A stretch of 64,000 bases of DNA from Bacillota bacterium (GTDB lineage Bacteria > Bacillota > Clostridia > Oscillospirales > Acutalibacteraceae), in assembly GCA_021771115.1 (NCBI GenBank), contig JAETPP010000002.1, positions 1 through 64,000 of the forward strand, in the 5' to 3' direction. Each line of letters opens with the position of its first letter. Within the stretch, counting starts at the first letter, position 1. A program made the translations under genes and the position numbers. Positions 12,479 through 20,697 of this stretch are shown piece after piece. A model generated the notes under the pieces. That model did not search any database. It was not told the origin of the DNA and worked only from the letters and a program-made list of their open reading frames with translations.

Positions 12479-12644
12479 GTTCTCCTCTTTTCATTGGCAG
12501 CGAACTCGGCTGCAGGATCAAGGCAGGGCAAGAGGAACCACAGGGCACGAAAAACAAAAAAGCGCACCGATTTGCATGACAAATTCGCATGACAAATCGA
12601 TGCACCCGTGTTTGTGCATTCCTTTCGTTCCCGGCCTGCCGGAA

Positions 12645-12860
12645 CATTGGGAGATCGTAAGTCTTCTGACTCACGCTAGGAAAAGCGTCCTCCAGGGCGG
12701 AGAGCTCTTTTCTGCGTCCGTTTCCTACCTTCCCACAGCGCTTTTTACAGCAGCCGCAGTGGCGGCCTTTCGGCTCACATCATATGGATGCTTCGGAACG
12801 GTCTCGCGCTTACAGCGCCGGTCGCGCGGGGCTTTTCACCCCATTCCATCTACGCAGCTC
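12645..12860 (-). ncRNA. Cobalamin riboswitch (minus strand) in the 5' UTR of the giant surface protein
   Basis: Reverse complement carries GGAATGGGGTGAAAAGCCCC, GGCGCTGTAAGCGCG, GAGCCGAAAGGCCGCCACTG, TGGGAAGGTAGG and GAGTCAGAAGACTTACG, i.e. the ordered conserved blocks of the AdoCbl riboswitch including the B12-box GCCACTG. Confidence 0.9.
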
Positions 12861-12963
12861 CTGGCTTTCGGCAGATCGGCGATCTCTCAAAAGCGGTACG
12901 GCAGCGGCGACGATCTCCGTTTTTACGGTACCGATACGGCGACAGCCCGCCGTATCTGCCAAC

Positions 12964-12992
12964 AGTATAGTACAGCGGTTTTCAAAATGCAA
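12964..12992 (-). promoter_or_regulatory. SigmaA-type promoter, TTGCAT-N17-TATACT
   Basis: Located upstream of the minus-strand riboswitch with 17-bp spacing. Confidence 0.6.
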
Positions 12993-13176
12993 GCCCCTAA
13001 AAATATCATTTTTTTGATATCTGTATCTGCTGCAAACACGTTCCCGCCCCCTCATCCCCTTTCGAAAGGCTTCTGGTCCGCTTTTTAAACTTCAATAAAT
13101 CACAGGCTTTTCACGTTGGTATCGGCCAGACTTTTCAAAACCTTTCCAGCTTTCAAAAAAAGAAGCGTGATATCCA

Positions 13177-13205
13177 TTGACAGAGTGATTTTTATGGTAT
13201 AGAAT
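13177..13205 (+). promoter_or_regulatory. SigmaA-type promoter, TTGACA-N17-TAGAAT
   Basis: Located upstream of the plus-strand riboswitch. Confidence 0.7.
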
Positions 13206-13269
13206 GGAGGCACAATTTCATATGCTCCGGCTTTTGTGGCAAATACGCGACCTCAAATATAAGGCACGT

Positions 13270-13510
13270 ATTCTTGTTCGCTGAACAAGGGAATCAGGTG
13301 AAAAACCTGAACACGGCTTTGCCCGGCGCTTTTCGTTTCTTTTCGGAAGGCGGCTGATCCGGCAGGGCGGTGCTGTAAGCATGGAGCGGGCTTTCTTTCT
13401 GCGAAAGCAGGTCACTGGCTCTTCTTTTCGGGCTGGGAAGGCGGAAAGCCCGCGTTGGCCGTAGGCCTGAACATGCCAGTCAGAAGACCTACAACAAGGG
13501 GACTGATTTG
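13270..13510 (+). ncRNA. Cobalamin riboswitch (plus strand)
   Basis: GGGAATCAGGTGAAAAACCTGAACACGG, GGTGCTGTAAGCATGG, GCGAAAGCAGGTCACTGGCTC, GGGCTGGGAAGGCGG and GCCAGTCAGAAGACCT in correct order. Confidence 0.92.
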
Positions 13511-13567
13511 GTGGCGGCATATCCTCCAGGAGGGGATAGTCTGCCTCCTCTCGGCTATGTACACACA

Positions 13568-13598
13568 AAAGCGGACGCCTTTAGGCGTTCGCTTTTTT
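13568..13598 (+). terminator. Riboswitch expression-platform terminator
   Basis: AGCGGACGCC-TTTA-GGCGTTCGCT followed by TTTTTT, between the riboswitch and the first gene. Confidence 0.8.
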
Positions 13599-13653
13599 CT
13601 GCTGACCTGCCGCTTTGCCTGAGTGTTACGGAAAGAAAGGGGCAGATCTCACA

Positions 13654-19893: not shown

Positions 19894-20697
19894 ATGCCCG
19901 AAAACGAAGGCACTCCCGAATTCGATTGCCGGGATTATTTCAAAGAAGCAGTCTGTATCGACGCCATGCGGATCTACGATTCCTGCAGCGACAAGGACTG
20001 TCTGGAGGACATAAGGGTACTGTTTCCCGCGGACCGGCAGGCGCTGGTGGACAACGCCACAAATGTGCGGATCAGGGATGTAAGCGTCATCACAGTGTAT
20101 CTGGATCTGCAGCCCATTCCGTTTAATAAGGGCTTCTACTCTGTGGATATGACCTTTTTCTTCGATGTAGCTCTGGATCTGTTCGGCAATTCCGCTTCCT
20201 GCCCGATCCCGGTATGCGGCGTGGCCATCTTCAACAAGAAAGTGGTCCTGTACGGCAGCGAGGGCAACGTGAAAATGTTCTCCTCGGATCAGTGCGAGGA
20301 AAGCTGCGATCCCCAGGATTCCACGGTGCTGCCCAAGGCCACCGTGCAGGTGGCGGAGCCGGTTGCCCTTTCCGCCAAGCTGTGCGACAGGCCGCTGTGC
20401 AGCTGCGAGCCTTACTGCCGCATTCCCGAATGCATCTGCCGCAGGTACGGCGGCGAGTTTGAGTCTGCCCCCCAGCGGAACAATGTGTACGTCACCATCG
20501 GCCTTTTCACCATCGTGCAGATCGTGCGCAATGTGCAGATGCTGATCCCCGCCTACGATTTCTGCGTGCCGGAGAAGGAATGCGTGACCTCCAGCGACAA
20601 TCCCTGCGAGCTGTTCCGCCGCATCGACTTCCCCACCGACGAATTCTTCCCGCCCAGAGCCTCTGACCTGGGCGACGGCGGAAAATGCTGCAAATGA
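19894..20697 (+). CDS. Cysteine-rich protein of unknown function (possible spore coat/exosporium protein)
   Basis: 267-aa ORF with RBS AAAGGAGGAG; many Cys (CSDKDC, CEESCDPQ, CDRPLCSCEPYCRIPECICRRY, CC terminus). Confidence 0.75.
   Translation: MPENEGTPEFDCRDYFKEAVCIDAMRIYDSCSDKDCLEDIRVLFPADRQALVDNATNVRIRDVSVITVYLDLQPIPFNKGFYSVDMTFFFDVALDLFGNSASCPIPVCGVAIFNKKVVLYGSEGNVKMFSSDQCEESCDPQDSTVLPKATVQVAEPVALSAKLCDRPLCSCEPYCRIPECICRRYGGEFESAPQRNNVYVTIGLFTIVQIVRNVQMLIPAYDFCVPEKECVTSSDNPCELFRRIDFPTDEFFPPRASDLGDGGKCCK

Follow-up and report, generated by a model that had tools for sequence, protein, structure and literature searches.

Two outward-facing cobalamin riboswitches between a giant surface protein gene and a CbrT-like ECF importer operon: a probable B12 control hub

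A scan of the whole 64-kb stretch of DNA that was analysed (the window) with Rfam cmscan returned exactly two matches at gathering level (31.5 bits for RF00174), both of them full-length cobalamin riboswitches (Table 1). The copies point outward from a single intergenic region that separates the gene for a giant surface protein on the minus strand from an operon on the plus strand. A preliminary description of the locus had claimed two divergent and complete cobalamin riboswitches in one intergenic region and had called for a covariance-model check of both strands, and the scores obtained on the plus (51.6 bits) and minus (40.6 bits) strands bear the claim out. In the covariance-model alignment the RF00174 core is ordered on both strands, with P5 GGUG-AAA-CC, CUGUAA and the B12 box AGUCAGnAGAC. 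As DNA, both aptamers read GGTGAAAA..CC in the P5 loop, CTGTAA and AGTCAGAAGAC in the B12 box. Both resemble other members of RF00174 in matching the full model above gathering and in being followed by intrinsic terminators, but differ from the usual case in forming an outward-facing pair that shares an intergenic region and in carrying long peripheral insertions. A recent duplication was rejected as the origin of the pair, as the two aptamers are no more similar to each other than to a third copy in the genome.

Table 1. Features of the locus, with positions in the window
Feature	Position	Strand	Evidence
Giant surface protein, 3046 aa	3338-12478	-	Pfam, family HMMs, translation
Intrinsic terminator, minus leader	12605-12550	-	13-bp stem (12605-12562), 18-nt loop, then TTTTTTGTTTTT
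Candidate antiterminator hairpin ATGCAC/GTGCAT	12619-12600	-	Uses 5' arm of minus terminator; putative role
Cobalamin riboswitch aptamer, minus arm	12899-12639	-	RF00174, 40.6 bits, E 8.1e-7, model 1-189
Promoter-like TTGCAT-N17-TATACT	12992-12964	-	8/12 consensus matches
Promoter-like TTGACA-N17-TAGAAT	13177-13205	+	11/12 consensus matches
Cobalamin riboswitch aptamer, plus arm	13257-13510	+	RF00174, 51.6 bits, E 5.9e-10, model 1-189
Intrinsic terminator, plus leader	13567-13598	+	AAAAGCGGACGCC-TTTA-GGCGTTCGCTTTTTT; fold -20.2 kcal/mol
Alpha/alpha-toroid protein, signal peptide and SLH repeats, 544 aa	13654-15288	+	
Membrane-anchored DUF4430 (transcobalamin C-terminal-like) protein, 270 aa	15300-16112	+	PF14478, E 3.3e-18
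EcfT (CbiQ-like), 312 aa	16130-17068	+	PF02361, E 1e-9
Fusion of two EcfA ATPases and CbrT-like S component, 902 aa	16986-19694	+	

The terminator described earlier as obvious in the plus leader was confirmed. For the minus leader no clear T-run had been reported and a different mechanism, for example a translational one, had been raised; a T-run is in fact present, and the suggested difference in mechanism was not supported. In the minus leader GTGCATCGATTTG (12605-12593) pairs over its full length with CAAATCGGTGCGC (12574-12562), G-U pairs included, and the stem is followed by TTTTTT (12561-12556), one G and TTTTT (12554-12550). The fold, at -25.6 to -26.6 kcal/mol, was below that of 300 out of 300 shuffles (-11.9 +/- 2.7 kcal/mol, lowest -23.0 kcal/mol). 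This hairpin was overlooked by the terminator scan because the scan permits loops of up to 8 nt and the loop here spans 18 nt. The Shine-Dalgarno sequence of the minus arm lies roughly 60 nt further downstream, and translational control was dropped as the leading idea for this arm on account of a terminator of such strength ahead of it. The hairpin predicted to compete for the 5' arm of the terminator is the minimum free energy fold of the minus leader while the 3' arm is untranscribed, and may act as an antiterminator; no clear antiterminator pairing was seen in the predicted folds of the plus arm. As the terminators of both leaders precede the start codons and are well separated from the Shine-Dalgarno sequences downstream of them, transcriptional control is the simplest reading, and from their sequences both arms look like transcription-terminating OFF switches. 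Cobalamin riboswitches are OFF switches (PMC11477304), and from knowledge of this family both leaders would be expected to respond to ligand.

A near-consensus sigmaA promoter had been claimed for each arm. This stood for the plus arm, whereas on the minus arm the -10 element is good (5/6) but the -35 element matches at only 3/6 positions, and the minus-arm sequence is absent from the list of the promoter scan. A perfect palindrome, ATATCA-TTTTTT-TGATAT, is found just upstream of the minus -35 element (13003-13020) and is possibly an operator.

The giant protein encoded on the minus arm comprises a signal peptide, GLUG repeats, a DUF4430 domain (residues 1870-1952), an alpha/alpha toroid (2444-2716), a second DUF4430 domain (2753-2843) and three SLH repeats. 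Its toroid-DUF4430 block spans 400 residues, with the order found in intrinsic factor and transcobalamin, and is followed by the SLH repeats. The protein is mostly GLUG and other repeat sequence, which is typical of adhesins, and its main role might be that of an adhesin or S-layer protein with no link to B12, the minus aptamer having decayed or serving another corrinoid, so that only the importer arm works. The lower score of the minus aptamer, its several non-standard pairs and the poor -35 element would fit such a reading. We nevertheless consider it unlikely: the minus aptamer scores above gathering, retains the core motifs and is followed by a strong terminator, while the protein combines a toroid with two DUF4430 domains and has large homologues elsewhere that are also found behind cobalamin riboswitches (L064, L065 and L126).

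On the plus arm, the DUF4430 protein has one N-terminal membrane segment, and the genes that follow have the make-up of a CbrT-type ECF transporter, with an S component homologous to CbrT, an EcfT and two EcfA. When 12 S components of such operons were combined into a profile, its best PDB match was 6FNP chain A (E 2.6e-20), which is ECF-CbrT, a proven vitamin B12 transporter with a solved structure (PMC5997447). This match, together with the match of DUF4430 to transcobalamin and the lack of any match to CbiM or CbiN in the plus operon, argues against a system that binds or imports another molecule (cobalt, cobinamide or another corrinoid precursor, or a different tetrapyrrole) and uses cobalamin as a feedback signal only. 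In favour of another ligand, the EcfT resembles CbiQ, cobalamin riboswitches also control cobalt ECF operons, cobinamide is also bound by CbrT (PMC5997447), and other ligands were left open by Burroughs et al. 2007 and the reviewers of that paper (PMC1796856). On balance we find it improbable and favour cobalamin as the cargo. Because the giant protein and the importer operon both carry transcobalamin-like domains and the S component is CbrT-like, the two belong together, and their proposed co-regulation from one hub is supported by the divergent RF00174 pair and by the gene content. Downstream of the ECF operon, a 267-aa cysteine-rich protein without a Pfam match is encoded on the plus strand (19894-20697).

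DUF4430 domains in the window scored 85.8 and 66.3 bits, relative to a Pfam cut-off of 23.8. Searched against 177,635 PDB sequences, a profile of 25 DUF4430 domains taken from these loci only matched human transcobalamin-2 best (E 9e-4), and intrinsic factor had an E of 0.32. Signal-peptide-like N termini, SLH repeats and an alpha/alpha-toroid partner, which are traits of the transcobalamin-like SLBB (DUF4430) clade, were also found. The toroid profile matched squalene-hopene cyclases (2e-17) and gave no sequence match to transcobalamin, and PF01122 (Cobalamin_bind) was unmatched in all 13 toroid domains at E 5. No homology of the toroid to transcobalamin was thus found by sequence, and kinship between the two is a matter of architecture. 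AlphaFold models made without an alignment, both for the toroid with DUF4430 segment and for the toroid on its own, reached a pLDDT of 39, which is too poor for fold comparison. The likeness to animal intrinsic factor and transcobalamin thus consists of a toroid followed by a beta-grasp domain over about 400 residues and of the DUF4430 sequence match, whereas the bacterial toroid is not matched in sequence and the bacterial parts are anchored to the wall and in part distributed over separate proteins.

Riboswitches and DUF4430 genes were then counted in 120 genomes of the family, which gave 83 cobalamin riboswitch matches and 131 DUF4430 matches. For 54 of the 83 riboswitches, in 51 genomes, a DUF4430 gene follows on the same strand at a distance of no more than 6 kb, and for 35 of them at no more than 700 nt; these are counts among the matches listed, as stricter filters were used in surveys of more than 40 genomes, and second copies may be missed. 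None of the 83 riboswitches had a same-strand DUF4430 gene in the 10 kb upstream of it. The chance expectation for such adjacency is well under one, at about one DUF4430 per 2-Mb genome. DUF4430 as a family is not specific for B12 because it is also found away from riboswitches (54 of the 131 matches are the nearest match behind a riboswitch). A further DUF4430 domain in the same genome (L116, G000:C16, 5248-5484, plus strand) lies in a 1790-aa open reading frame on a contig for which no cobalamin riboswitch was reported. Two layouts recur. The first, a riboswitch followed by DUF4430 and a CbrT-like S component, is seen in most genomes of the same genus and at the third riboswitch of this genome; the second, in relatives, runs riboswitch, toroid, DUF4430, EcfT, EcfA, EcfS. 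At that third riboswitch (L063, G000:C295, 6496-7889, minus strand) the small DUF4430 gene is accompanied by a CbrT-like S component without a Pfam family.

Divergent cobalamin riboswitch pairs recur in the family and order. At least six others were found (G077, G146, G212, G247, G234 and G255), all in cobalamin biosynthesis clusters and most with a coding gene between the two riboswitches, and the divergent pair was therefore discarded as a unique feature of the window. A surface protein and an importer that share one intergenic region were observed, among the matches listed, only in the window and in one other genus (G038). In the latter a minus riboswitch of 33.3 bits, detected only with laxer filters, precedes DUF4430-EcfA-EcfS-EcfT, and a plus riboswitch of 92.9 bits at a distance of 80 nt precedes a beta-propeller surface protein; terminator-like hairpins are present for both. 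The surface protein (L062, G038:C17, 8867-11640, plus strand), directly behind the 92.9-bit riboswitch, has about 890 residues and combines a beta-propeller of the PQQ type with a sortase-like C terminus; in its logic it may be a Gram-positive counterpart of BtuG, a beta-propeller protein that binds B12. In G364 the giant protein has a 2613-aa homologue, whose gene diverges from DUF4430-EcfT-EcfA-S; of these two arms, only that of the homologue has a riboswitch. G043 has a single riboswitch operon that opens with a GLUG surface protein and also contains toroid, DUF4430 and ECF genes. The hub in the window looks like a split version of this capture-and-import unit found elsewhere as one operon, which would be its putative history. 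A small open reading frame with a GR-P-K-DF motif adjoins the riboswitch of the giant protein in G364 (L126, G364:C58, 11272-11472, plus strand), and something like it is seen again near another such locus (L127, 10065-10436, minus strand).

The possibility that the contig is a contaminant was rejected, given that the TsaD it encodes shares 92% identity with that of two genomes of the same genus. The ECF fusion had no match above 32% identity in 28 other members of the genus that were sampled, and this suggests that the fusion was gained by this species or lost in others. A 3.4-kb contig of the genome carries cbiD together with a cobM-like and a cbiG-like gene, the last two named by eye from sequence, and strict B12 auxotrophy of the genome is therefore not established.

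We regard the region as a probable B12 control hub in which two riboswitch-terminator arms control SLH surface capture proteins and a CbrT-like ECF importer. When cobalamin is plentiful, the two riboswitches, which are independent and have separate promoters and intrinsic terminators, would shut off both divergent transcripts; when B12 is scarce, both would be expressed. The minus transcript would then yield the giant SLH-anchored surface protein with its transcobalamin-like toroid and beta-grasp (DUF4430) module, and the plus operon the SLH-anchored toroid protein, the membrane-anchored DUF4430 protein and all parts of an ECF importer, its CbrT-like S component being fused to the ATPases. Within the cell wall, the surface toroid and DUF4430 proteins may capture corrinoids, which would presumably be handed over to the ECF transporter. 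Whether in Gram-positive gut-type bacteria these parts form a wall-anchored relay, from the giant protein to the membrane-anchored DUF4430 protein and on to the CbrT-type ECF transporter, built from intrinsic-factor-type parts and with a double riboswitch that sets receptor and importer separately in response to one signal, is a question on which we put even weight either way.

The transcobalamin-like SLBB domain (DUF4430) was described in Gram-positive bacteria by Burroughs et al. 2007, fused to toroids and in operons with CbiO- and CbiQ-like genes, for which B12 scavenging was predicted (PMC1796856). The window shares with these operons the secreted DUF4430 proteins, the alpha/alpha toroids and the CbiO- and CbiQ-like genes. 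The word "riboswitch" is absent from the text of that paper and CbrT-like S components do not feature in it, whereas the window adds a 3046-aa SLH protein and a statistical riboswitch association. Later papers on bacterial transcobalamin-like DUF4430 proteins were not found in the open-access literature. The link between riboswitches and DUF4430 makes the 2007 sequence-based prediction a directly testable B12 system, and it bears on the proposal that animals acquired the transcobalamin-like domain, and with it intrinsic factor, from such bacteria (PMC1796856). In addition, the hub brings two natural B12 switches together in a single promoter region, where they can be compared side by side.

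Extracellular B12 capture by Gram-positive gut bacteria is, as far as we could find, largely unstudied, unlike that by BtuG and BtuH of Bacteroides. No kinship between these two proteins and the DUF4430 or toroid proteins is known to us. BtuG and BtuH are Gram-negative surface lipoproteins that bind B12 and work with BtuB (PMC6143338, PMC8941943), and the logic shared with the window is that of surface B12 binders, here putative, which feed a B12 importer in gut bacteria. Relative to ECF-CbrT (PMC5997447), to which the window is linked by the homology of its S component, the T, A, A and S components form a dedicated operon in which S is fused to the ATPases and cell-surface proteins are added.
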